Source: Lachnospiraceae bacterium
Lineage (GTDB): Bacteria; Bacillota; Clostridia; Lachnospirales; Lachnospiraceae
DNA: 64,000 nucleotides
Assembly: GCA_024681795.1 (NCBI GenBank)
Contig: JAILAD010000088.1
Location: 33,852 to 97,851 of the forward strand
Direction of reading: 5' to 3'
The position numbers and the translations under genes are program-made. Every line of letters starts with the position of its first letter. The first letter of the stretch is position 1. The notes below the pieces were generated by a model. It was given only the letters and a program-made list of their open reading frames with translations, made no database searches and was not told the origin of the DNA. Of this stretch, positions 27,047 to 47,884 are shown one piece after another.

Positions 27047-30000
27047 TTATTTGTTCTCATGGAAAGTGGCATCTCCCTCTTCCGAATAGAAGGATATTCC
27101 CGGCATATAAGTCGTGTCATCACCCTCTTTTGTCCATGTAGAACTTCCTGTCGGTGTTTTATATTCGGTATCTGCTTCCAGGAACAAATCTCCCTCGCGA
27201 ATAACACCTGTCTTCATCCATTCCGGTGCGGTAATGATATCCATTGAAACTTCATTTCCGGCTTTATCCACTACGGTAACTTTCACTTTCTGTTTTCTCT
27301 TTCCGGAAGGCAGATCGAACGTTACATTTCCGTTTCCGTCGGTTTCCGTCTTTATGATGTTTCCGTCCACCCGTACCTGATCCAGATTCTTATCGCTTGC
27401 GCTTCCTTTCAGCACACCCTTTTCATCGGTAAAATAAGTGCCGCCCTCTTCCATATCATGAATCTGCGGTTTCAATACATCAATCCGAAGTGCTGCAATC
27501 TGAATTGCCGCGGACTGTTCACCGGTAGCGGCATTGCGGATAAAGAAGGAACTTCCCGCATCCTCTTCGCTTAAGGTAATTGCCTGATTGGTAAAATTCT
27601 GTCTATTCTTTACGGATATCTGATATCCCGTTGCCGGAACAAGCGTTACTTCCGAAGTATACCATCCTCCCGCACCGATTGTTCCGGAAATGGTATATGC
27701 TCCTTCCGGAACCGGCATGTAGGATATAGAGAATGTACAGCTTGCGGAGCATCCGCTGTACTCGTTATTTTCAGGCAGTGAAACAACGGCCACATAGGTT
27801 CCGACTTCCGTCGGCATCGCTCCCGTAAATGCGCTGTCCGGTGCTCCGGCAGGCTTATAGGAAATGACTGCCTTCGAAGCATCGTTTGTGGAAGAAGAAA
27901 CTACAGGTGTAGGTGTATTACCTCCGTAAATTGCATTGTTAACAGAAATGGATACACTGCCCGGTTTTACCGTTACCGTATTATCTTCTTTCTTCTCATC
28001 CGGTTTCTTTGCAATTGTAACCGATACGGATGCAGGAGCAATATTGTCATAAACCTGCTTCCCGTCTATCGTGTTTCCGTTTACCTTATACCATACGGTA
28101 TAGGTTCCGGCATCCTTTCCTTTCGGGATTTCGGTACTGTAACCGTCTTTTTCCGAGAGGCTGTAAAGCAGCGTTCCGTTTTCAACCTCACCTGCCGTTA
28201 CGAGTTCCTGGTAATTTCCGTTTTCGGTCAGTTCTTTTGCGGCCGGTGCCGTCTTAATCGTCGGAAGGCTTGAGCCGATTGTAAATTTCACGGTAGCCGA
28301 AGAAGGCAGTTCATAATTGGAATTCGACAGTTTCACAGCCTTCGCCGTGTGAGTTCCGACTTCCGAAGTTTCTCCCTCAACCGTTACCCTGCAGGTATCA
28401 CCGTCTGCAACTCCGGTAAGAGTCAGTGTGGGAACATGTTTCTTTCCGTCGTATTTAAATGTCAGATCGGACCACTTCAATCCAACCGTTTTCTTTTGAA
28501 TCTCAACCTCTACCGATACCGGTTCAACGTCTTCGTAATTCCCGCCGCCGATAACTCTGCACCAGACCGTATAGGATTTGGCATCCTTACCTTCCGGTAC
28601 GGAATCGGAATAATTGCCGCTTTTTTCAAGACCATAATAAACGCTTCCGAAATCGGCTTTTACCCCGCTGACGAGAGGCTGCATTTTTCCGTTATAGGTA
28701 AGAGTGACTTTTTTCGGAACCGTCAGCGAATTGGATGCTTTTGCAATGGTCACGGTCCGTACGGAAGGTGTTACGTCGTTGTGATTCTGATCACCGTCCA
28801 CTCTTAACCATACATAATATTCCCCGGCATCCGTTTTCACCGGAATCTCGGATGAATATGCATCAGAAGAAGGCTCAATCATTTCCCCTTCCTCTTGCTG
28901 ACCGAGAGCAAACATCGGTGTACCGCCGATTACCGAAAGGCCGCCGATTAATTTCTGCCCGGATCCGTTATAAATAAGACTCTCCGAAGTCTCGCTGATG
29001 CTGCAGTCCGCTTTTGCAACCGTAAATTCGGCAGTTGCCTCTGCACCGTTGTAATTATCCGATTCGGCGATTGTCGCTCTTAATACATAATCGCCTGCGT
29101 TTGTCGTACTTGTGGGAAGTCCGGACACATAATCCGTATCTTCTCCGCCTATTAACCTGTACGCATAGGTAACCTCACCGTCTCCGAGATTGTCGAATAC
29201 GGTCGGGGTTGCGGGTGCATCGCCGTACGTCCATCCTGTTATCGAAACGGACGGTGTAATATCCGCACGTGTAATCTCAAATTCCGCGGTTGCCGAAGCT
29301 CCTTCATAATTATCGGTTTCCGCTATTTCAACTTTTACGGTATACTGTCCCGCATCGGAAGGTTTCCGGTCCGAATAGGTCGTATCCGAAGCAGCCTTGT
29401 AACGAAAAGTTTCCGTACCGTTTCCGGTATTTCCGCTTACGACCGGATCGGATGCTGTGGTTCCGTATACCCAGTCTGCCATCGTAACCGACGGACTGAT
29501 TTCCTCTTTGGAAATGCTGAAATCGGCATAGGATACAGATGCGTTATAATTGTCCGTTTCCGCAATTGTCGCTCTGACCTTATAGTCTCCCGCTTCCGTC
29601 GGAACCTCAGTGTCATAGGTACTGTCTGCCGCATCGGATGCCTTATACTCAATTGTCTCAGCACCGCCGCTTATATTATCCGTAATGACAGGTGTGGAAG
29701 GAGTTTCCCCGTACTTCCATCCCGTAATCGAAACCTGCGAATCGAAATCCGCTTTTGCTATCGTAAAATCAACTTCTGCCGTTGCGGAAGGATAATTATC
29801 TGTTTCCGCAATTGTTGCAGTCAGGGTATAATCCCCTGCCGCAGTGGTACTTCCCGGTAGCCCGGCAACGCTCTCCGTTTCCAAATCGGATTTTTTCCTG
29901 TAGGAATATGTCACTGCACCGTTTCCGGTATTTCCCGTTACAACAGGCTCATCCGGTGTTTCCCCGTAGGTGAAACCGGAAAATGCAATGCTCGGGGAAA

Positions 30001-32542
30001 TATCTGCCTTTTCAACCGTAAAGTCTGCGGTCGCTTCTCCGGCATTATAATTATCGGTTTCTCCGATGACTGCCTTTAAGGTATATTCCCCTGCAGTCAG
30101 GGTGGAGGAAGGAAGACCTGCCGTATAGGCATCTTCTCCCGCGGTTTTTAATTTATAGGAATAGGAAACCGTGCCGTTTCCGGTATTTCCGGTTAACACA
30201 GGAGTATTGGGTTCCTGTCCGTATGTCCAGTTTCCGATTCTTACGGCAGGTGTAATATCCACTTTTTCAATTGTCACGTCAACGACTCCCGTTACTGCAC
30301 AGGAGTGGTTGTCATCCAGGGATACCAGATCGTATCCGACATGATAAGTTCCCGCATTCTTACCGACCGGAATATCATACGAATATTCCGTCAGTGCCTG
30401 ACCATCTTCATCCGTAAGACGATACCGGATTTTACCGAATTCCGATGATGATACACCTGCGGTAACAAGTTCCTGTTCCGTGCCGTCATAGGTAAGGGGT
30501 TTCGCAGCAGGGTCGGTCGCAATCGTAATCTCAGCCGGATTAATGTGAAAGTCACGGGTATTCTCTGCCGGTAACTCATAATTCGAATTGGACAGAGCAG
30601 TTGCCTCGGCAGTATAAGTTCCCGCATCCGTGCCTCCTCCTTCTATGGTTACGGTGCAGACATCTCCGGTGACTACACCGGTTAATGAGGCTGAAATACA
30701 CTGTTCTTCTCCGGTATACGATAATTCCGCATCGTCCCATTCAAGACCGACGGTCTTGGGTGCAATCGTTACGGAAATTTCTTCTTCATCGGAATCCAAA
30801 TGGTTTTCATCACCGGAAACCTTTACCCGGACAACGTATGCTTCCGCAGTTTTTCCGGTCGGAACGGTTTCGGAATACTCTCCCGTTTCCGACAGCCTGT
30901 ACACAAAGGTTCCGTCGCCTGCATCTCCGCCGGATACCAGAGCCTGATTGTTTCCGTTATAAGTTAAATCATTTGCATCCGGCCATACGATATCTTCAAC
31001 ATCCGCTTTTTCAATTGTAAAATTTTTCGTATATGTTTCGCCGGAAGGCAAAGCATAATTATCATTCGTAAGACCGGTCACACCTATGGTGTAACTGCCG
31101 GCATTTTTGGCAACTCCGTCTACCGCACTTCTTCCTTCAATCGTATAAAGAGCTTCACAGCTATCTCCGGAAACCACTCCGTTTACGGTTGCTGTCGGAT
31201 GCTGTCCTTCGCCGTTGTAAACAAACTCTTCTTCAGACCATGCAATGCCGGTGATTTCTTTCGGAGCAATCGTTACCGTCTCGGATTTCGGCTCGGAATC
31301 CATCTGATATACGCCGTCTCCCAGCACTTTCCACCAGAATGTATACGTATCGGCATTTTTACCGGTCGGCTTCGCAGAAGAATACGTTCCGTCCTCGGCA
31401 TCACTGAATACTACGGAATCCTCGTAATCGGCATCCACATCGACAAGTGCCTGTTCTGCACCGTTATACTCCAGATTCTCTGCCGGAATAATTTCACCGT
31501 CTGCAATCATGCTTACAATAAACGGTTCGCTGTCAAGGGTAAATCCTTCATATCCCCTGCTTTCTATCTGACCGTCGGAATTAATCACGGTTTCGGTTTC
31601 CCCGACAGTCAGAACCGCTTTGTATTTTCCGGGTATTGTCGGATCGGAGGTACCGTGCCATGAAGTATCCGAAGGATCCTCATAGTTTTCCAGAATTACA
31701 AATTCATAATCGGAATCTCTGGTATCTCCCATGGCAACCCTCACTCCCGGGCCGCCGTCCGGAACCGATCCGTCGGGACCGAGGGTATATCCGGTCACTT
31801 CGATATCCCAGTCATTTTTCGTGTCAAGTTTTTCCGGAATCGGGTACAAATCAAGCACTCCGAGATCCAGATATTTTACAACTTCTTCAAGATCGGATTC
31901 TCGAATCGGGTTTCCTCCGAGTACGAAAAATCCTTCCGAATTGTTCATATCAATATAGGAACTGCTCGTGGCCCATCCGATATAATCCGTTTTTTCGGGT
32001 GCGGTTTTTTCCGCGAAATACACTCCGCCGCTTCCGTAGAAATACGACCAGTCTTCTGCCTCGACTTCCTCCTCTTCATCCAGATACCGAATCCGGAATC
32101 CGTCATACTGTACAAATTTGTACTGAAGCCCTCCGGTTGTATCATCCGCATTCACACTGTCAAGTTTATATACCGCCCGGAGATTCTTATCCCCGATCAG
32201 TTTGGGTGTGCCGGCAAATTCCGGAAATACAAATTCCCCGTACTGATAATATATTTCGTCTTCCCCTTTAGAATCCCCGGAATTAACAGGTTCAATCACA
32301 TAAATCCCGTCACCGAGTTCCTTTTCAACGGTATAGATAATACGGCAGAACGCTTCGTTTCCGTTAACGGTATCATCTCCCATAACCCAGGAACCGATGT
32401 CAAGACTGTCAAGGTCATACTCATCCGCATCTGCCTTTATCGGTACCAGAACGACACTGAATACCAGCAGAATGCTTAAAAACATCGCCAGGGTTTCTTT
32501 TGCTCTGCGTCTGATATTAAAATTTCTTTTTTCATTCCTCAT
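27047..32542 (-). CDS. Very large secreted repeat protein with tandem MBG-type Ig-like modules
   Basis: 1831 aa; signal peptide LAMFLSILLVFSVVLVPIKADA; repeated WTYGxxPxxPVxxGNTGNGxVxYSYK...GDYTLxATIAETDNYNxAxATAxFTVxKADI modules and (L)TYNGxxQxLV modules. Confidence 0.88.
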   Translation of the reverse strand: MRNEKRNFNIRRRAKETLAMFLSILLVFSVVLVPIKADADEYDLDSLDIGSWVMGDDTVNGNEAFCRIIYTVEKELGDGIYVIEPVNSGDSKGEDEIYYQYGEFVFPEFAGTPKLIGDKNLRAVYKLDSVNADDTTGGLQYKFVQYDGFRIRYLDEEEEVEAEDWSYFYGSGGVYFAEKTAPEKTDYIGWATSSSYIDMNNSEGFFVLGGNPIRESDLEEVVKYLDLGVLDLYPIPEKLDTKNDWDIEVTGYTLGPDGSVPDGGPGVRVAMGDTRDSDYEFVILENYEDPSDTSWHGTSDPTIPGKYKAVLTVGETETVINSDGQIESRGYEGFTLDSEPFIVSMIADGEIIPAENLEYNGAEQALVDVDADYEDSVVFSDAEDGTYSSAKPTGKNADTYTFWWKVLGDGVYQMDSEPKSETVTIAPKEITGIAWSEEEFVYNGEGQHPTATVNGVVSGDSCEALYTIEGRSAVDGVAKNAGSYTIGVTGLTNDNYALPSGETYTKNFTIEKADVEDIVWPDANDLTYNGNNQALVSGGDAGDGTFVYRLSETGEYSETVPTGKTAEAYVVRVKVSGDENHLDSDEEEISVTIAPKTVGLEWDDAELSYTGEEQCISASLTGVVTGDVCTVTIEGGGTDAGTYTAEATALSNSNYELPAENTRDFHINPAEITIATDPAAKPLTYDGTEQELVTAGVSSSEFGKIRYRLTDEDGQALTEYSYDIPVGKNAGTYHVGYDLVSLDDNHSCAVTGVVDVTIEKVDITPAVRIGNWTYGQEPNTPVLTGNTGNGTVSYSYKLKTAGEDAYTAGLPSSTLTAGEYTLKAVIGETDNYNAGEATADFTVEKADISPSIAFSGFTYGETPDEPVVTGNTGNGAVTYSYRKKSDLETESVAGLPGSTTAAGDYTLTATIAETDNYPSATAEVDFTIAKADFDSQVSITGWKYGETPSTPVITDNISGGAETIEYKASDAADSTYDTEVPTEAGDYKVRATIAETDNYNASVSYADFSISKEEISPSVTMADWVYGTTASDPVVSGNTGNGTETFRYKAASDTTYSDRKPSDAGQYTVKVEIAETDNYEGASATAEFEITRADITPSVSITGWTYGDAPATPTVFDNLGDGEVTYAYRLIGGEDTDYVSGLPTSTTNAGDYVLRATIAESDNYNGAEATAEFTVAKADCSISETSESLIYNGSGQKLIGGLSVIGGTPMFALGQQEEGEMIEPSSDAYSSEIPVKTDAGEYYVWLRVDGDQNHNDVTPSVRTVTIAKASNSLTVPKKVTLTYNGKMQPLVSGVKADFGSVYYGLEKSGNYSDSVPEGKDAKSYTVWCRVIGGGNYEDVEPVSVEVEIQKKTVGLKWSDLTFKYDGKKHVPTLTLTGVADGDTCRVTVEGETSEVGTHTAKAVKLSNSNYELPSSATVKFTIGSSLPTIKTAPAAKELTENGNYQELVTAGEVENGTLLYSLSEKDGYSTEIPKGKDAGTYTVWYKVNGNTIDGKQVYDNIAPASVSVTIAKKPDEKKEDNTVTVKPGSVSISVNNAIYGGNTPTPVVSSSTNDASKAVISYKPAGAPDSAFTGAMPTEVGTYVAVVSLPENNEYSGCSASCTFSISYMPVPEGAYTISGTIGAGGWYTSEVTLVPATGYQISVKNRQNFTNQAITLSEEDAGSSFFIRNAATGEQSAAIQIAALRIDVLKPQIHDMEEGGTYFTDEKGVLKGSASDKNLDQVRVDGNIIKTETDGNGNVTFDLPSGKRKQKVKVTVVDKAGNEVSMDIITAPEWMKTGVIREGDLFLEADTEYKTPTGSSTWTKEGDDTTYMPGISFYSEEGDATFHENK

Positions 32543-37753: not shown

Positions 37754-39634
37754 CTATTCGATTTCCATGATTTCATTAACGTCTACCTGAATGATCGGGC
37801 GGATCCCCATCGGCTGGTCCACTCTCCAGTTTTTCAGGTTGCCGTTTAAAATGCACTGGCCGTCACAACTCTCACCGTATGCAAAAGTTCCTCTTCCCGC
37901 ATTCAGAGAACCGCGGGTTCTTAAGCCGTAACCCATGGGAAGGGATTCATCCACCTTCTGGGCTGCCGCATACTGGCTGATCATATTCGGGCCGGATTTG
38001 TCATTTACTTTCAGTCCGTTTCCGCCTCTTACCATCTTGTTGCCGAAGCCGCCGTTTACCTCGTCAACAGAAGGAAGGAATACACGGTCATAGGTCACTT
38101 CATCCGTAAAGGAAGAAATCGGTGTAATGACTTCGCGAATCATAATTCTCTTCTGCTCCATTTCCGTGAAAGCGGTGTGCAGAAAATCACGGTTCAGCCA
38201 TTCCCTGATCCGGCTGGTTTCCCAGGAAATACCGGTTCTGGTCTTCATGACTTCACGCTCGCTCATGTCAATAAAATCTCTCTCGTCATACATCTGGTAA
38301 TCGAGAATGTACTCGGACTGGATAATCATTTTGTTTCCGGAATGATGTAAAATCACCCAGGGAATCTCGGAAAATTCAAATACCCTGTATTTCCGGCTGT
38401 CCTCTTTCAATTTGGCAAGATTTTTATTCTTGAAATCCTTGCTCATAAGTCCGTCAAGCGGACGGAATCTCTTATACTTATTCTCTCCGACGTTTGCACA
38501 GTCCTGCAAATCGTAATTTGCATAAATAATATCCGTTGTCAGACTCGCTCCGACAACCTCATTCATCGGATAATGGCCGAACCAGATTCTCTGGTTTCTT
38601 CTGTCATACAGCATGGACTGGTCGAATGTAGGGAATACCACCACATCCTCGTTCGATTCCTTCTTGGTAACTTTAACACCGTAGAGGGACCTTGCAAGCT
38701 GTCCCATATCCTGCTGCCGGTCCTTCGGATCCATGGAAAGACCTTTCGTGATTGCATCAATAATACGCTGCTCCATCGGGATTCCGAATTCCTCAATCGG
38801 AATCAGCGGTTCGCCCTGGCTTCTCTGATAAGCGTCCGTCGGTATATCTCCGGTAATCATGCAGTATAAAGTTGCGCAGATTCCGTATACATCCGTCCAC
38901 GGTCCCTGGCCTTCGCCGAGCATCTGCTCAAGCGGTGCATAACCGAATTTACCGAAGTAAATCTGACCGGTTTTGTTGTTCAGTTTCTTGGTAGCGCCAA
39001 AGTCGATTACCTTAATGGAACCGTCGGAATCAAGCATGATATTCTCGGGAGAAATATCGCGGTGAATCAGACCGCTCTTGTGAATTTCCTCCATGGAGTG
39101 GATAACCGGCTCCATCAGGGATAATGCCTGATCTACCGGAAGTCTGCCGCCGTTGTTGTCAATAAACCGACGAAGCGTACCACCCTCCAGGAACTCCATA
39201 ATCATATATCCGCAGTTATTCGCATAGAAAAGTTCCTTGATGGAAACAATACCGGGATATTTCGAGAACTGCGCAAGAATTCTTGCCTCACGCAGATAAG
39301 ATTTCAATTCTTCTTCATACTCTTCGTTTGTCGTATCATCCGTAACGTATAAAGAACCGTCCTCGCCTCTCTGTACCATATCGGACGGGAAAAATTCCTT
39401 TACCGCCACACGATACTCCAGCAAAAGATCGAATCCGATGTATGTAATACCGAAATTACCCATTCCGAGGATATTTCCGATTAAAATTTTTCCGTTTAAA
39501 ATGGTACCCGGTTCCAGCGCTTCGCCGTAACTTTTCACTCCCCTTTTCGGCTTCCCGCAGACCGGACAGAATTCATCTTCTTTACTCATGTGCATGCAGT
39601 TTAAGCACATTTTTTTGATTTCCGAATATTCCAT
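37754..39634 (-). CDS. Ser/Thr protein kinase with N-terminal zinc ribbon and C-terminal DUF6273-like domain
   Basis: CLNCMHMSKEDEFCPVCGKPK; kinase motifs VAVKEFFPSDM, GLIHRDISPENIMLDSDGSIKVIDFG; C-terminal WETSRIREWLNRDFLHTAF...GIRPIIQVDV. Confidence 0.9.
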   Translation of the reverse strand: MEYSEIKKMCLNCMHMSKEDEFCPVCGKPKRGVKSYGEALEPGTILNGKILIGNILGMGNFGITYIGFDLLLEYRVAVKEFFPSDMVQRGEDGSLYVTDDTTNEEYEEELKSYLREARILAQFSKYPGIVSIKELFYANNCGYMIMEFLEGGTLRRFIDNNGGRLPVDQALSLMEPVIHSMEEIHKSGLIHRDISPENIMLDSDGSIKVIDFGATKKLNNKTGQIYFGKFGYAPLEQMLGEGQGPWTDVYGICATLYCMITGDIPTDAYQRSQGEPLIPIEEFGIPMEQRIIDAITKGLSMDPKDRQQDMGQLARSLYGVKVTKKESNEDVVVFPTFDQSMLYDRRNQRIWFGHYPMNEVVGASLTTDIIYANYDLQDCANVGENKYKRFRPLDGLMSKDFKNKNLAKLKEDSRKYRVFEFSEIPWVILHHSGNKMIIQSEYILDYQMYDERDFIDMSEREVMKTRTGISWETSRIREWLNRDFLHTAFTEMEQKRIMIREVITPISSFTDEVTYDRVFLPSVDEVNGGFGNKMVRGGNGLKVNDKSGPNMISQYAAAQKVDESLPMGYGLRTRGSLNAGRGTFAYGESCDGQCILNGNLKNWRVDQPMGIRPIIQVDVNEIMEIE

Positions 39635-39926
39635 AACCTTCTCCAATCAAAAATTATTTAGAAAAACAGAATATATCTGTCCCATTTTCCTAATAAAAGC
39701 ACATCCATTATACCTAAATTTGTGAGATTTTTCCATATAGTTTCCATCAAAAAAAGCCTTTTTGTGCAAAAAAACCAATTTATAGATACATATTTGTATA
39801 AAATCGAGAAAAAGAGAAAGAAAGCACCGGAAAGAAACCGTCAAAAGCCGTATTTTAAACAGGAAAATCCAAAAAGATAATCCAAAGTGATAATTCAAAA
39901 AGGAATAATAGAAAGGGAATTCTTAA

Positions 39927-41051: not shown

Positions 41052-41621
41052 TTATGCTTCGGGAATCGGCATCCACACAATTTTCTTTGTCATCTCCCTA
41101 CAGGCCTCATCGCCTTCAAGTGCACGCAAAACCGTAAGGCCGAAAGGAATCGCACAGCCCATGGAACGGCCGGTAATAATGTTTCCGTCCATGATTGCAG
41201 GATAATCAAACGAAACCTCCGCACCGAGGAGTTTCTCCTCAAATCCGGGATGGCAGCAGGCCTTTTTCCCCTGAAGAAGTCCGAGTTCTCCGAGGATTTT
41301 CGGAGCGGCACAGATAGCTGCAATTTTCTTTCCTTTTTCCGCAAATTCCAGAATCAGTTTCCTAAGCGGTTCATACTCCTGAAGATTATTGGTTCCCGGC
41401 ATACCGCCCGGAAGAATAATCATCTCTGTTTCGGAAAAGTCCATGTCGCCGAATACAGCATCCGCAACAATATGCACCTTGTGAGAACTGACTACATCTG
41501 TAGTTTCATTGATGGATACAAGCGTTACGTCGGAACCTGCCCGTCTTAATAAATCCGCTACGGTAAGCGCTTCAATTTCTTCACATCCGTTTGCAAGAAA
41601 AATAACTGCTTTACTTTTCAT
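41052..41621 (-). CDS. DJ-1/PfpI-family protein
   Basis: VIFLANGCEEIEALTVADLLRRAG, ILPGGMPGTNNL, IAAICAAPKILGELGLL. Confidence 0.93.
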   Translation of the reverse strand: MKSKAVIFLANGCEEIEALTVADLLRRAGSDVTLVSINETTDVVSSHKVHIVADAVFGDMDFSETEMIILPGGMPGTNNLQEYEPLRKLILEFAEKGKKIAAICAAPKILGELGLLQGKKACCHPGFEEKLLGAEVSFDYPAIMDGNIITGRSMGCAIPFGLTVLRALEGDEACREMTKKIVWMPIPEA

Positions 41622-41703: not shown

Positions 41704-43170
41704 CTACTTGAGTCTTAAATCCACGGAGTCATCCGGTGTTTTTTCAGCCTCTGTTTCATCCGCGCCCGGGGTCTCTTCCTGCTCACCGGAGGCTTTGTTT
41801 TCCTCTGCATTCAGGGAATTGTCCGATTTTCCGGAAGCCCTGATCTCCGCCTCGGTAGAGGCAACGATACTGTCCTCGGAAGGCATGTCGAAGGCATCCT
41901 CCTCCGCAGGTTTTTCCTTTACAAAGCCGTCATCATCCGTTGCTGCATCCGAAGTTTCAGTATCCGAAGTTGCGGCATCTGAAGTTGCAGTATCCGGGGT
42001 TTCCGATTCCTCTTCAGAAGACCTCGTTTCGGACGTAAGTTCTTTCACTTCCGGCTCCGGACCGAATTCTTCCTCGATTTGTTTTTGACGCATTTCTTCG
42101 TAACGTTTCTTCCTGCGCTTCTCACGAACGGAATCGACAACCTTCTCGAAATCTTTCTTCGTAGGCTTATGATCCACTAAGAACCAGATTACGTTTACGA
42201 TAATCATGATTGCCAGAATACCTGCAATAATCCACTGGGCATGGGCCACACGCATCATTTTGCCTTCTTTGTATCTGGCTACGTTTTCCCAATACGGGAA
42301 ACCGATATCATCAGTACGCATTTCCCTTGCCTTACTCTCTTTTAAGAGTTCAAAGTAATGCACATAGGAAAAACGGTCGGAATTTTCCAGGACCTTGTAA
42401 GTATCCGCATCAAAAAGCTTGATGTCTTTTATTACATTGTAAGCGGAATGCGGAATCGGATTCGGCGCAAGCAGCTCATATACGGTAATTGCAAGATCCT
42501 CTTTGTTTGCCGCCATGGTTTCATAGTTTACGAAAACTTTCGGATCGTCGTTTCCGAATGCGAGTTTTTCAACACTGCTCTGTCCTCTTTTGTAAACACC
42601 GGCAACATATAAATCCTTTTCGCCGAACCGCACCTTCATTCCGGCCACGTCCATACTGCCGAAGAGCGTCCATGCCGCTTCCTCGTCCAGAATCACGTAG
42701 TCCTGCATGATGTTGTCATCGTCAAAATAGCAGCCGTCATACATCTGTACAGGATGGAACCGGAAAAAATCCCCGCCGACACCGATTGCGTCAAAAGTAC
42801 TCTCGTTTCGGATTTCCGAAGAAATCGTAAGCGTATCAAATGCCGCATAGCAGTCCAGAAGATTGGCAGGCGTGCCTTCGGTCGGTTCAAAAGAGGCTAC
42901 AATACTCTTCTTTTCAAATCCTTTTACAACTTCGCTGCGAAAATGCTCAATCTGTTTTTTGTCCACCTTTGCACGGGTTGAAAAATAAACCGTATTATGG
43001 GCAAAATCCTTGTCCTCAGACCAGCGGCTTGCAATATTCTGGTCTACTAAGCTTTTCTTGGCATTTAGCAGTATCAGACCGAGAATACCGACCGCAATCA
43101 GCATTACGGTTCCCGTACCGACCATGATGATTCGCGGAATATTCAATTTTCGTTTCTTTTTTTTCTTCAT
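41704..43170 (-). CDS. MacB periplasmic-core-like membrane protein with only two TM segments
   Basis: TM near the N-terminus, extracytoplasmic region with GVGGDFFRFHPVQMYDGCYFDDDNIMQDYVILDEEAAWTLFGSMDVAGMKVRFGEKDLYVAGVY, second TM, then acidic tail with TSDAATSDTETSDAAT repeats. Confidence 0.7.
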   Translation of the reverse strand: MKKKKKRKLNIPRIIMVGTGTVMLIAVGILGLILLNAKKSLVDQNIASRWSEDKDFAHNTVYFSTRAKVDKKQIEHFRSEVVKGFEKKSIVASFEPTEGTPANLLDCYAAFDTLTISSEIRNESTFDAIGVGGDFFRFHPVQMYDGCYFDDDNIMQDYVILDEEAAWTLFGSMDVAGMKVRFGEKDLYVAGVYKRGQSSVEKLAFGNDDPKVFVNYETMAANKEDLAITVYELLAPNPIPHSAYNVIKDIKLFDADTYKVLENSDRFSYVHYFELLKESKAREMRTDDIGFPYWENVARYKEGKMMRVAHAQWIIAGILAIMIIVNVIWFLVDHKPTKKDFEKVVDSVREKRRKKRYEEMRQKQIEEEFGPEPEVKELTSETRSSEEESETPDTATSDAATSDTETSDAATDDDGFVKEKPAEEDAFDMPSEDSIVASTEAEIRASGKSDNSLNAEENKASGEQEETPGADETEAEKTPDDSVDLRLK

Positions 43171-43217
43171 GAATCAAAAACTATTTCCGTTTATTTTTTC
43201 CGGCATCAGCCCGGTTA

Positions 43218-44945
43218 TTATTCGGACTGTGCAGCTTCCGTAGACAGGCGAACCTGCTGTCCTCCCGATAACGGCTTGGTGGAGTTGGTAATTACATATA
43301 CTCCGTACGGATCGATATCCGCTTCAATTGCGGAACGGGTATCGTCTTTTGCATAAATCTTTGTAACATATACTTTCTTGGCAACATAACGTTTTCCGAA
43401 AGGCACCGCTTTTTCCTGAAGAACAAGAATGAAATCACCCTTCTTGTCCTTATCGAGAGCACTGTTCGGAACGGTATAATCGTAGGATGCGCTTGCATCA
43501 CCTACGGAAACGTTCAGTGTTCTTCCGACTTCGAGATCCGGACCTGCAACATCAAATACGAGATTCTTTTTGTTCTGCGGGTCTGTCTTGTCGGGATTGA
43601 TAGCAACAAGATTTACAATGGTATCATCGGAATATCCGTAATCATCAATATGAACAACGTCTCCGACCTTAACGGTTCTGGCCTGCTTATTGTCAACAGA
43701 GAAGCTGATACGATATCCTTTTCCGTCCACGCGGAGTACTGCTACGGGGTTCTCCGGATCGGTCTTTTCGCCGGATTTCTTGTTCATGGTAATCACCTTA
43801 CCGTTAACGGGTGAGGTGATTGTACTTCCGAGCGCTTCTTTTTCGAGTTTGGCAACCTTTTCCTTTGCCTGGAGGAGTTTATTGTAATTGTCGATTGCAT
43901 CAATTTTGGTTGACATGGAATCGACATATTTTTTCTTCTTTTCTTCCACTTCCGCTTTTGCCTGCGTTGTTAAGGACTTCGCTGCGGTTTCTGCGTCAAT
44001 CTGTGCCTGAATTTCATTGATTTTCTTCGTGGTATCGGCATCTTTCGTACCGGAGATTGTTGCCTGCAGGGCAGAATTGCTCTTGGCTTCGGCTAACTGG
44101 TTTAATCTGGCCTGTGCATCATCGGCTTCTTTTTTCACATCGGGAAGTTTTTTCTCGTCCTCCGCAAGTTTCTGTTTATCCTCTTTGGTAGGATTCTCTT
44201 TGTTCTTTAACTCCTCTATTTCCTTTACAAGATTGGTATAAGCATCAATTTTATCATTAAGTCCGGGAGACTCTTTTTCATAGGTACTTGAATCAATTGC
44301 ACTCTGAATGGTCCATGCCGCGGCATCGCCCGCCTTGGTTTTATCCAGTCTGCTCTTTTCAAGTGTCAGAACCTGAATATTGGATTCACGCAAATCAAGT
44401 TCCGCCTGGAACTGTTCAATCTGTCTGTCATATGCGGCAATATTATTCTGAATCTCAATCAGATTCACACTGGCACCGGCCTGCACCTGAAGCACCTGTT
44501 CCGCGCTTAACCCGTTTGTGATAATTGCTTTCTGATAAGCGGTTTCCGCGTCTCTGACGGCTGCACGAGCGGAATCCAGTTCGGATGACTCCTCGCCTTC
44601 CAGTTCATAAAGGATGTCTCCGATTTTTACATCATCACCTTCCTTTGCATGAACCGCTTTAATCGTTCTGGTTTCTTTTACCGTCAGATTATAGGGGTCC
44701 ACCGTTTCGATTACACCCTGTCCGCGAACCTGCGTCTTAATCGTTCCGCTGCTCACCATTTCCGTGGATACCTGAGGCAGGGAATAATTCATGATGGTGT
44801 TTGAGAAGAAAGTCAGAACCAGCATGATGGAAAGGAAGATTATTGCTATATTTTTAATAATCTCTCTCTTTCTGGCGCCTTTTTCTTCTTCTCTTTCTTC
44901 GGCTTTCTGTTTTTCCTGATCTAATTTGCTGATTTCTTCGCTCAT
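43218..44945 (-). CDS. HlyD/RND-type adaptor (membrane fusion) protein
   Basis: TIKTQVRGQGVIETVDPYNLTVKETRTIKAVHAKEGDDVKIGDILYELEGEE, long coiled coil, TITSPVNGKVITMNKKSGEKTDP. Confidence 0.85.
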   Translation of the reverse strand: MSEEISKLDQEKQKAEEREEEKGARKREIIKNIAIIFLSIMLVLTFFSNTIMNYSLPQVSTEMVSSGTIKTQVRGQGVIETVDPYNLTVKETRTIKAVHAKEGDDVKIGDILYELEGEESSELDSARAAVRDAETAYQKAIITNGLSAEQVLQVQAGASVNLIEIQNNIAAYDRQIEQFQAELDLRESNIQVLTLEKSRLDKTKAGDAAAWTIQSAIDSSTYEKESPGLNDKIDAYTNLVKEIEELKNKENPTKEDKQKLAEDEKKLPDVKKEADDAQARLNQLAEAKSNSALQATISGTKDADTTKKINEIQAQIDAETAAKSLTTQAKAEVEEKKKKYVDSMSTKIDAIDNYNKLLQAKEKVAKLEKEALGSTITSPVNGKVITMNKKSGEKTDPENPVAVLRVDGKGYRISFSVDNKQARTVKVGDVVHIDDYGYSDDTIVNLVAINPDKTDPQNKKNLVFDVAGPDLEVGRTLNVSVGDASASYDYTVPNSALDKDKKGDFILVLQEKAVPFGKRYVAKKVYVTKIYAKDDTRSAIEADIDPYGVYVITNSTKPLSGGQQVRLSTEAAQSE

Positions 44946-44974
44946 GTTAACCTCCATTAACGAAATAACTGTTT

Positions 44975-45901
44975 CTATCCCTTAACACCGCCCTGTGTGG
45001 TAATACCTTCTACCAGGTAATCCTCACCATACAGGAAAAGTAAAATACACGGAATCATATATATTACCGCAACCGCAAATGCCAGTCCGATTTCACCGGC
45101 ATTGATTTTTGAAAGGAATACACTTAACGGCTGCAGTTTGTCATCCTTCAAAAGAATGAGCGGCTGCTCTACCATGTTCCAGTAATCGATGAAAATCAAA
45201 ATACCTACCGAAAATGCGGAACCCTTACAAAGCGGCATACAAATCTGTCCGAACATTCTCCATTCACTTGCACCGTCCACTCTCGCCGCTTCATATAATG
45301 CCTTCGGAATACGCTTCATGTGTTTGGTCAGAAGGTATACCGCAAACGGTGAAGAAATACCGGGTAACCAGATTGCCCATCTTGTATTTAAGATGTGAAG
45401 CCAGTCGGAAACCAGATAGTTCGGAACCAGCGTTACCTGATACGGCATCAGACAGATAATGATGTATATGAAGAACAGTACATCCTTCCATTTGCCCTCC
45501 AGTCTTGCAAACGCATAACTTGCGCCCATTGCGAGAAGAATCTGGAATAATGCAATCGGTACGGCATAAAATACGGAGTTCCAGAACTTGAACAAATAGT
45601 CCGGGCTCTTGAAAAGTACCGTTACATACTGTTCCCCCGTAACCATTTCCGGTATCAGCTTTAAGTCAACTTTCTTACCGATATAGACCTTACCGCCGGA
45701 CTGCGTCGTTGCAAAAATCTGTCCGTAGTTTGCCGCGATTTCCGATTTTGACATAAAGGAGTTCGTGAATGTCAGAATCGTAGGCAGCAGGAAGAAAATT
45801 GCAACAATAAATGATACGATTACAATAATCGTTTTCTTTATGATAATAGGAGCCCTGTTTTTCCGAACCGGGCCGTCTCTGAATTTCGATAACCTGCTCA
45901 T
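44975..45901 (-). CDS. Carbohydrate ABC transporter permease (MalG-type)
   Basis: EAA loop ALYEAARVDGASEWRMFGQICMPLCKG; about 6 TM. Confidence 0.9.
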   Translation of the reverse strand: MSRLSKFRDGPVRKNRAPIIIKKTIIVIVSFIVAIFFLLPTILTFTNSFMSKSEIAANYGQIFATTQSGGKVYIGKKVDLKLIPEMVTGEQYVTVLFKSPDYLFKFWNSVFYAVPIALFQILLAMGASYAFARLEGKWKDVLFFIYIIICLMPYQVTLVPNYLVSDWLHILNTRWAIWLPGISSPFAVYLLTKHMKRIPKALYEAARVDGASEWRMFGQICMPLCKGSAFSVGILIFIDYWNMVEQPLILLKDDKLQPLSVFLSKINAGEIGLAFAVAVIYMIPCILLFLYGEDYLVEGITTQGGVKG

Positions 45902-47040
45902 TCTTCCATATCCCGTCCGAATCTATTTTCCGCAATATACAGCCCCAGAATAATCAGTGTCATTACGATGGACATCAGAATCGCCGCAGAGGACAGTTTC
46001 TGATAATCCATACTGTCAAACATGTTATTCATATAATGCTGCAGGATATACATGGTGTGGAACGGGTAAGATCCCGTCAGCAGGTATACCTCGCGGAATG
46101 TTTTAAAGGAGTTAATCAGTGAAATAATGGTAACAAACAAAAGCGTGGGAGAAAGATAATGGATTTTGATTTTCCAGAAAATCGTCCACGCGGAGTTTGT
46201 ATCCAGATATGCTACTTCCAGGGCATCCTTCGGAATGTTTCCGAGCGCACCGAGGAACAGAATCATATTGTATCCAAGGTTTTTCCACAGGAACAATACC
46301 AAAACCACGACAGGTCCCCAGTTTGACTTCATCCAGTCAATTTTCTGAAGCCCGAAGAACTGCAGCATCTCACTTGCAACACCGTTGAAATCAAAAAGCA
46401 CCTGGAATACCAGAACAACCGAAGCCACAGGAACAACCATGGGACTTAAGTAGGAGGTTCTGAATTCACTGGCAAAAGGAATTTTATGATCCAGCATGAT
46501 TGCAAGAAGCAATGCAATAACCAGTGCCGACGGCACTGCAATAATGGAAAACCGTAACGTATTCAGGGAAGCTTCCCGGAAGGATGCATTCTTAAATACG
46601 CTTATGATATTCTGAAACCCTACAAAATTCTTGGTGATCGGGTTGTCCACAAAAGCATAGAAAATTACCACGGCAAAAGGAGCGAGGTAAAATAACAATA
46701 CCCCTGCAAGTGACGGAATCAGAAAAGGAAGCACACGCAGATTGTTTTTAAAACGACGCTTGTAGTACGATTTCAGCTGCGCCTTACTCGGTTTCGGAGG
46801 TTTGGGCGGCTTTTCCTTCTTTTTCCTTTTCTTCTTTCCTTTTTCTTCGGTTATTTCTTCGGGAGTCTCCTGATTTGCAGGTTCCTTTTCGGATTTAAAG
46901 CTTGCCAAAGCAGCGGCTGCGGTCAGGTTTTGATTCCCGCCGGCTGATTCCTCCGTGCCCGTATTCTCTGCAATCTCTACGGAACTGCTTTCGCTATGAA
47001 CTTCCTGAAGGTTAATCTCCCTTGCTTTCTTCTTTCCCAC
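45898..47040 (-). CDS. Sugar ABC transporter permease (MalF-type) with long charged N-terminal extension
   Basis: PSLAGVLLFYLAPFAVVIFYAFVDN...DALEVAYLDTNSAWTIFWKIKIHYLSPTLLFVTIISLINSFK; KGKKKRKKKEKPPKPPKPSK stretch. 4-bp overlap with the downstream permease. Confidence 0.88.
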   Translation of the reverse strand: MGKKKAREINLQEVHSESSSVEIAENTGTEESAGGNQNLTAAAALASFKSEKEPANQETPEEITEEKGKKKRKKKEKPPKPPKPSKAQLKSYYKRRFKNNLRVLPFLIPSLAGVLLFYLAPFAVVIFYAFVDNPITKNFVGFQNIISVFKNASFREASLNTLRFSIIAVPSALVIALLLAIMLDHKIPFASEFRTSYLSPMVVPVASVVLVFQVLFDFNGVASEMLQFFGLQKIDWMKSNWGPVVVLVLFLWKNLGYNMILFLGALGNIPKDALEVAYLDTNSAWTIFWKIKIHYLSPTLLFVTIISLINSFKTFREVYLLTGSYPFHTMYILQHYMNNMFDSMDYQKLSSAAILMSIVMTLIILGLYIAENRFGRDMEE

Positions 47041-47044
47041 GAAC

Positions 47045-47884
47045 CTAATTTTCCTTCTTTACAGCTTCTTTCTTTTCTTCCGTATCTGTTTTTTCCGGTT
47101 CTTTCTTTTTTTCCGGTTCTTTCTTTTTTTCCGGTTCTTTCTTTTCTTCCGGTTCTTTCTTTTCTTCCGCTTTCTTTATTTCTTTCTTATTCTCAAGCGT
47201 GTCATATACCTTAATTCTGAAACCTTCCTCTTCTTTTTCCTCCGCTTCCGCATTCTTTCCGTCTTCCCCGGCCGTTTTTTTTCTTTCGGCTTCAAGACGT
47301 GCCTTTTCTTCGGCTTCCTTCTGCTTCCGCTCGGAAATTTCGAGATCACGCTGCTTATGAACCGTCATTTGCTTATTTGTTACAAGAACATCCAGTTCCT
47401 GCTGCTTTGCCTCATAGACTTCCTTCAGTTTCCGAAGCTCATCGCTGACCTTCCTGTAATCGGAATTGAGTTCATCTTCTTTGGCGTAATAGTTCTCGAT
47501 ATTCAGTTCCTTTGCTTTTCTCTTTCCTTCTTCCGTCTGCACCACCTGATAATAGTACTTCCGGTAACTGATGAAGAAAAGAATAATGAAAACCACTGCT
47601 ACCATAGGCGCACAGGACGCAATTGCAAGTGCAGCCGCAAAATGGACAAAATGAAACTCAAAACCGACAATCAAATCCGCCGCAAACACAAACAGGCTGA
47701 ATCCGGCAATGACCAGATACATAATCGGCGGACCGCCCTCCGTATGGTTTTTCAGGGAATGTTCCTGCTTCGCTTTCCGAAGGAGGAACGCTTCATCCTC
47801 GAGAATATGTATTCTTTCCTTCAGACGAAAAACCTCATCAAACAGTTTTTTCTCTTCGTCCGAATATTCAATGGTAATGTCCAT
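47045..47884 (-). CDS. Two-TM coiled-coil membrane protein with EKKEP repeats
   Basis: Coiled-coil N-terminus, two TM segments, coiled coil, then EEKKEPEEKKEPEKKKEPEKKKEPEK tail. Confidence 0.75.
   Translation of the reverse strand: MDITIEYSDEEKKLFDEVFRLKERIHILEDEAFLLRKAKQEHSLKNHTEGGPPIMYLVIAGFSLFVFAADLIVGFEFHFVHFAAALAIASCAPMVAVVFIILFFISYRKYYYQVVQTEEGKRKAKELNIENYYAKEDELNSDYRKVSDELRKLKEVYEAKQQELDVLVTNKQMTVHKQRDLEISERKQKEAEEKARLEAERKKTAGEDGKNAEAEEKEEEGFRIKVYDTLENKKEIKKAEEKKEPEEKKEPEKKKEPEKKKEPEKTDTEEKKEAVKKEN

Follow-up and report, generated by a model that had tools for sequence, protein, structure and literature searches.

What are an adaptor of the HlyD/MacA type and a protein with a MacB-like ectodomain doing in one operon with a pair of sugar permeases? 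The question is raised by five minus-strand open reading frames (ORFs) at positions 41704-47884 of the window, i.e. the whole stretch of 64,000 nucleotides analysed here (contig JAILAD010000088.1 of a Lachnospiraceae bacterium, assembly GCA_024681795.1). Our reading, to which we assign a probability of roughly two in three, is that the locus encodes the membrane core of a CUT1-type (MalFGK2-like) ATP-binding cassette (ABC) importer for oligosaccharides with a built-in MacAB-like extracytoplasmic module. The conserved core consists of four genes, MalF-MalG-adaptor-MacBx (the quartet), without the 279-amino-acid (aa) protein that precedes them; MacBx denotes the MacB-ectodomain protein. The genes are, in the order of transcription:

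47045-47884, minus strand: lineage-specific accessory protein, 279 aa, with a cytoplasmic coiled coil and two hydrophobic segments, taken as two transmembrane (TM) segments from hydropathy; no Pfam family
45898-47040, minus strand: MalF-type permease, 380 aa; PF00528 (BPD_transp_1), 47.9 bits
44975-45901, minus strand: MalG-type permease, 308 aa, EAA coupling motif intact (EAARVDGA); PF00528, 46.5 bits
43218-44957, minus strand: HlyD/MacA-type adaptor, 579 aa, one N-terminal TM segment (hydropathy), lipoyl halves flanking a coiled coil; HlyD_3
41704-43170, minus strand: MacBx, 488 aa, with TM1, ectodomain, TM2 and an acidic cytoplasmic tail; MacB_PCD, 33.7 bits (cut-off 27)
41052-41621, minus strand: DJ-1/PfpI protein, operon neighbour; DJ-1 family match

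The ORF coordinates agree with the original prediction of five same-strand genes with short gaps or overlaps, including the spacings given there (4, -4, i.e. an overlap, 17 and 47 bp along the direction of transcription). The domain types claimed, a coiled-coil 2-TM protein, MalF, MalG, an HlyD-type adaptor and a MacB-like core, were confirmed by Pfam, hydropathy, AlphaFold and Foldseek. It had also stated that an ATPase, a solute-binding protein (SBP) and a full FtsX-type permease are missing from the five genes, and rightly so: Pfam revealed neither an FtsX C-terminal domain nor an ABC ATPase in the five proteins, and the five ORFs include neither an SBP gene nor an ATPase gene.

Conservation of the quartet

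MalG is the most conserved part of the system, with 58-97% identity across genera in the family alignment. A scan of the contigs of species genomes with the MalG alignment matched at least 597 stretches, at least 535 of them encoding MalG relatives. The best 80 loci of these at least 597 belonged nearly all to Lachnospiraceae, including Butyrivibrio, Kineothrix alysoides, Parablautia muri, Acetatifactor and Roseburia. MalF was located directly upstream of MalG in 74 of 76 loci. Among 77 loci with a called MalG, the adaptor followed in 71 and MacBx came next in 65, many of the missing neighbours being contig ends or losses in ORF calling. After de-duplication, with loci present in both genome collections counted once, MalGs of at least 400 bits had an adjacent adaptor in 98 of 101 cases, and the other three loci (L057, L071, L074) stop at a contig edge. 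An adaptor was likewise adjacent to 19 of 20 divergent MalGs (209-285 bits), which come from some Lachnospiraceae and from further families of the order, and to none of the conventional MalGs scored (n=3, 83-99 bits); the link to the adaptor thus characterises this MalG subfamily. The divergent form of the quartet extends to about ten families of the order besides Lachnospiraceae. MacBx-like proteins come next in many of these loci, as a looser group with weak scores of 14-53 bits.

In the MalG tree all 101 sequences fall into one clade, whose node is weak (0.35); the node uniting them with ten divergent members has a support of 0.997. Overall, the quartet is syntenic in about 100 independent loci, far beyond chance, and this genome evidence supports MalF, MalG, the adaptor and MacBx as one inherited unit. 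The proposal that importer permeases and HlyD/MacB-type parts form a conserved module is borne out by these loci. Joint conservation of all five genes, which had been proposed as well, holds for the quartet and fails for the 279-aa protein, whose homologues upstream of the quartet are confined to the genus of the window and close kin. MacBx was found in 29 of 30 genomes of the same genus; the exception (G020) is 74% complete and also has no large SBP of the kind described below. Many of the genomes analysed are metagenome-assembled.

Binding proteins

In relatives, the quartet is flanked by proteins of 740-900 aa with an SBP_bac_1/8 domain in the C-terminal half. These large SBPs appear to be lipoproteins, with a lipobox closing the first hydrophobic segment. 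Most relatives have one or two within the quartet operon, and among the 77 loci a large SBP was located downstream in 61 and upstream in 44. The window genome (2.75 Mb, 93% complete) contains five, all away from the quartet on contigs C40 (two), C86 (one) and C67 (two); the stretches read around these genes contain none of the MalF/MalG kind. The C86 copy adjoins pheST, a position that looks retained in sister genomes. The genome has three MalFG-type pairs (C4, C60 and C77), of which those on C4 and C77 score as conventional. On C40 (L049:7834-17619) two tandem large SBPs are followed by a gene for an ABC ATPase and one for a 1094-aa FtsX-domain protein.

A lone large SBP apart from the quartet was also found in the same-genus genomes G003 and G005 and in several others. 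The position of the DJ-1 gene varies by clade: it lies after the SBP in one, directly after MacBx in that of the window, and in a third next to the SBP encoded in trans. Since DJ-1, elsewhere the follower of the in-operon SBP, adjoins the in-trans SBP in G003 and G005, their arrangement reads as a split operon. The DJ-1/PfpI gene is probably a bystander, yet it marks the history of the operon.

The distribution of the two proteins was compared in 250 genomes of the family, at least 90% complete and about one per genus. A large SBP was present in 25 of 25 MacBx-positive and 6 of 225 MacBx-negative genomes (Fisher p = 4e-29, phylogeny ignored); five of the latter six are weaker matches. MacBx is single-copy in each of the 25 genomes, which carry one to four large SBPs each at the threshold used, with at most four candidates scored per genome. 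In two sister species MacBx and the SBP form a single ORF (1078 aa in L088, 1093 aa in L090), the result of one event. Taken together, the genome evidence supports the large lipoprotein SBPs as the binding proteins of the quartet, gone from the operon in the lineage of the window.

The original prediction envisaged a hybrid envelope complex with a borrowed ATPase and no need for a binding protein, which agrees with the absence of SBP and ATPase genes from the window's own locus. The binding-protein part is not borne out, because an SBP lies routinely in the same operon of relatives, an observation named beforehand as speaking against it. With five SBPs in trans in the window genome and a large SBP in all 25 MacBx-positive genomes, we regard such a complex as highly improbable.

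The same data bear on a further explanation, in which one operon encodes two devices, a normal importer and an ATPase-less MacA/MacB-like pair that, for instance, stabilises the wall or regulates another MacB-type transporter. MacBx lacks what it would need for coupling to an ATPase, and in one locus (L144, genome G198) a canonical MacAB-type cluster of ABC ATPase, HlyD and MacB-like genes lies directly downstream of the quartet, both of which fit separate devices. We nevertheless consider this explanation unlikely, given that MalGs of this subfamily almost always have the adaptor beside them over about ten families, that MacBx occurs once per genome and only together with large SBPs, and that it is found fused to an SBP.

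The SBP domain itself matches that of CbpC both by sequence (2e-41) and by fold. In the model of an 843-aa large SBP of the window genome (mean predicted local distance difference test score, pLDDT, 80), the N-terminal part, residues ~63-411, is all-beta. An initial match to CylK was retested with a profile of the N-terminal part alone and held (1.6e-9); regions of TRIM3 (2.5e-6) and TRIM2 were matched as well. We take the matched regions of CylK and TRIM3/TRIM2 to be beta-propellers, and by sequence similarity the N-terminal ~300 residues of the large SBPs are likely a beta-propeller too.

The ATPase

A shared MsmX/MalK-like ATPase encoded elsewhere had been suggested as the motor, and this we grade as probable. 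A single ATPase with an OB_MalK domain is encoded in the window genome (C54, far from the locus); it passes the cut-off of the UgpC subfamily. An OB_MalK ATPase was present in 28 of the 29 other quartet genomes, exactly one in 24 of them, and on the contig of the quartet in none of the 29. None of the three MalFG-type pairs of the window genome has an adjacent MalK-type ATPase in the stretch read.

Complete operons were found in three further families. In family f55, which belongs to the same phylum and not to the same class, genomes G453, G608 and G695 have the order SBP-MalF-MalG-adaptor-MacBx-MalK, the adaptor of G608 being hidden in ORF calling by an overlapping ORF on the opposite strand. 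The operon MalK is the sole OB_MalK gene in all three. The gene order of the f17 genome G837 is as in f55, with which it groups (support 0.98), and a divergent version of the operon in the f16 genome G719 again has MalK last. Since MalK closes the operons of f55, f17 and f16, it appears to be the natural motor of the system. Only MalK matches above 400 bits were counted; many of the apparent matches near quartets (~30-120 bits) are other ABC ATPases and were rejected. By this measure none of the Lachnospiraceae quartet loci examined has a true MalK alongside. The MalK/UgpC-type ATPase MsmX of B. subtilis is likewise encoded apart and common to several importers (PMC7658222), and by analogy the Lachnospiraceae quartets very probably use an orphan MalK. 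Conserved synteny without SBP or ATPase genes nearby had been named as support for the hybrid complex; in most relatives SBPs are in the operon, and three families have MalK there as well.

Permeases, adaptor and MacBx

The MalG family retains the canonical EAA..DGA coupling motif, and the nearest solved structures are SugB, AlgM2 and MalG. The adaptor scores 23.1 bits against HlyD_3, barely above the cut-off of 22.2, and 51.9 bits against RND_mfp, which is under the cut-off of that family; its family profile matches the structures of HlyD, EmrA and MacA. Apparently complete copies have predicted lengths of ~460 to 713 aa across loci.

The AlphaFold model of MacBx, built from a 20-sequence alignment, has a mean pLDDT of 76, with ~90 for the ectodomain, and a layout of TM1, ectodomain, TM2 and a cytoplasmic helix. 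Foldseek searches of the ectodomain against the PDB returned MacB, YknZ, Spr0694-0695 and LolE with E values of 1e-11 to 1e-6, and BceB was also among the structural matches. The acidic cytoplasmic tail is restricted to the closest relatives. In MacB, TM1 and TM2 carry the stalk, TM2 is followed by the major coupling helix and then by TM3, and the TM3-TM4 pair is packed on the outside (PMC5985334). MacBx contains just two TM segments (hydropathy) and was found without TM3-TM4, without PF02687 (FtsX) and without an ATPase domain; the window operon has no MacB/LolD-type ATPase, fused or co-transcribed.

In G004 (L027:9049-10142) a frameshift cuts MacBx into two ORFs while the other quartet genes are intact, which reflects either decay or an assembly error. 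Two candidates for MacBx fusions were rejected: an in-frame TAG in G053 had suggested readthrough or fusion into the next gene, which encodes an unrelated multi-TM protein, and in L160 the adaptor is followed by a protein of 1423 aa, considered as a MacBx-SBP fusion, that on inspection is activase-like and unrelated.

These relationships could be read in terms of export. The known context of HlyD adaptors and MacB ectodomains is export or extrusion machinery (PMC5985334, PMC5768738), and MalFG powered by MalK might move a glycan or peptide outward through an exit tube of adaptor and MacBx, as in MacAB or YknXYZ, with the SBPs retrieving or sensing the product. This appears quite unlikely. The permeases are of an importer class with SugB and MalG as nearest structures. 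Most loci have flanking SBPs whose fold is that of a sugar-binding protein, two species have MacBx and an SBP joined in one protein, and the ATPase of the complete operons is of the MalK/UgpC and not the MacB/LolD type. On the same grounds, i.e. permease class, SBPs, fusion and ATPase type, import is favoured over export.

The match to BceB brings to mind a sensor, in which SBP, MacBx and adaptor would sense sugars outside the cell and pass on a signal while transporting little, as BceAB does with two-component systems. A histidine-kinase-like gene adjoins the operon in L164, and in L109 and L122 inspection revealed a gene for a GntR-like regulator immediately before the operon. Regulators beside sugar importers are common, however, no signalling partner is conserved over the loci, the coupling motif of MalG is retained and MalK is present, so that a sensor seems very improbable.

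Neighbouring genes

The five-gene locus of the window lies downstream of genes for a PPK2-type kinase and a PAP2 phosphatase and is followed by those for DJ-1, a radical-SAM protein and a Ser/Thr-kinase-like protein. In scans for promoters and terminators the counts were close to, or modestly over, those of shuffled sequence, too little to fix the operon ends. A protein with a protein-kinase domain followed by DUF6273 (window 37754-39646) stays beside the quartet in sister genomes, and an 1831-aa protein with MBG domains (window 27047-32542) is likely a giant surface protein.

Other loci have their own additions. In L109 (8289-8660) and L122 (7604-7984) the gene of the GntR-like regulator shares 4 bp with the start of MalF. 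In L059, L060, L062 and L074, a clade that has no SBP upstream, MalF is instead preceded by genes for a lipoprotein-like protein of ~200 aa and a protein of ~222 aa with one TM segment. In part of the genus, namely in L025 (13047-14948), L026, L028 and L030, two SPFH/Band-7 (HflK/HflC-like) genes are situated between the downstream SBP and DJ-1, and a single SPFH gene is located downstream in Butyrivibrio loci.

Proposed mechanism

In the importer favoured here, MacBx, with neither its own ATPase nor TM3-TM4, would act as a passive bracket beside MalFG. The adaptor would sit on MacBx as a ring or tube, as MacA does on MacB, and the resulting tower may cross the inner-wall zone, dock the SBPs and guide released oligosaccharide to MalFG, with MalK powering ordinary alternating-access import. 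A single quartet core could then serve several SBPs. In Spr0693-0694-0695 the adaptor forms a hexameric tube on MacB-like ectodomains that reaches ~154 A above the membrane and fits the inner-wall zone (PMC5768738); we propose a similar geometry, with MalFG as the motor-coupled part.

We infer the assembly of the tower, its docking and channelling role and the direction of transport. The full picture, a type I importer whose MacA/MacB-like tower serves as a wall-spanning import duct and docking hub, with one core, one shared ATPase and unlinked propeller-bearing SBPs, is offered as a tentative proposal that is somewhat more likely wrong than right. If true, it would be, to our knowledge, the first case of an HlyD-type adaptor serving import.

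Several observations weigh against the importer with a built-in module. The MalF family retains E.A of the EAA loop, and the glycine is gone in most members. Some quartet loci have no SBP nearby, and the pairing of the in-trans SBPs with the quartet of the window rests on family membership and co-occurrence. The structure models were built from shallow alignments of 18-20 sequences. The adaptor and MacBx might be linked to MalFG by co-transcription alone, without touching it.

If the parts do form one complex, this bears on how oligosaccharides and large SBPs reach a permease beneath a thick wall, on the use of one core by many SBPs, and on why so many SBPs of Lachnospiraceae appear to be orphans. 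It also calls for caution in annotation, since the adaptor and MacBx are likely labelled as efflux or macrolide-export parts despite their place in a sugar-uptake operon.

Comparison with known systems

A literature search, with most subscription journals and bioRxiv outside its coverage, returned no description of the combination of importer, HlyD adaptor and MacB ectodomain. The parts of a study on Butyrivibrio transport available to us describe many SBP and permease genes and do not mention adaptors (PMC6344614). The quartet is apparently an undescribed, widespread sugar-uptake system of gut clostridia, in which parts known from export and mechanotransmission are paired with an importer.

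The nearest solved SBP domain, by sequence and by fold, is that of CbpC from Clostridium thermocellum (PDB 7x0o), whose chain of 438 aa, unlike the large SBPs, has no propeller extension. The quartet resembles CUT1 or type I importers such as MalEFGK2, SugABC-LpqY, MsmEFGK and AraNPQ-MsmX in its MalF- and MalG-type permeases, the latter with an EAA loop, in its family-1 lipoprotein SBP and in a MalK/UgpC-type ATPase whose gene can lie elsewhere and whose service can be shared (PMC7658222). Unlike theirs, its permease genes have those of an HlyD/MacA-type adaptor and of a MacB-ectodomain protein as near-obligatory neighbours, and its SBPs bear a likely beta-propeller of ~300 residues at the N-terminus, occur in several copies per core and are often unlinked.

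With MacAB, YknXYZ and Spr0693-0694-0695 it shares an HlyD/MacA adaptor gene just before that of a TM1-ectodomain-TM2 protein of the MacB fold. In contrast to these pumps, the quartet has no MacB/LolD-type ATPase, MacBx has no TM3-TM4/FtsX part, and the partner permeases are MalFG. In GlnPQ-type fusions, an SBP is tethered to its own transporter. The MacBx-SBP fusion of L088 and L090 similarly tethers an SBP to a membrane subunit, the tether here being the MacB-like subunit instead of the permease.

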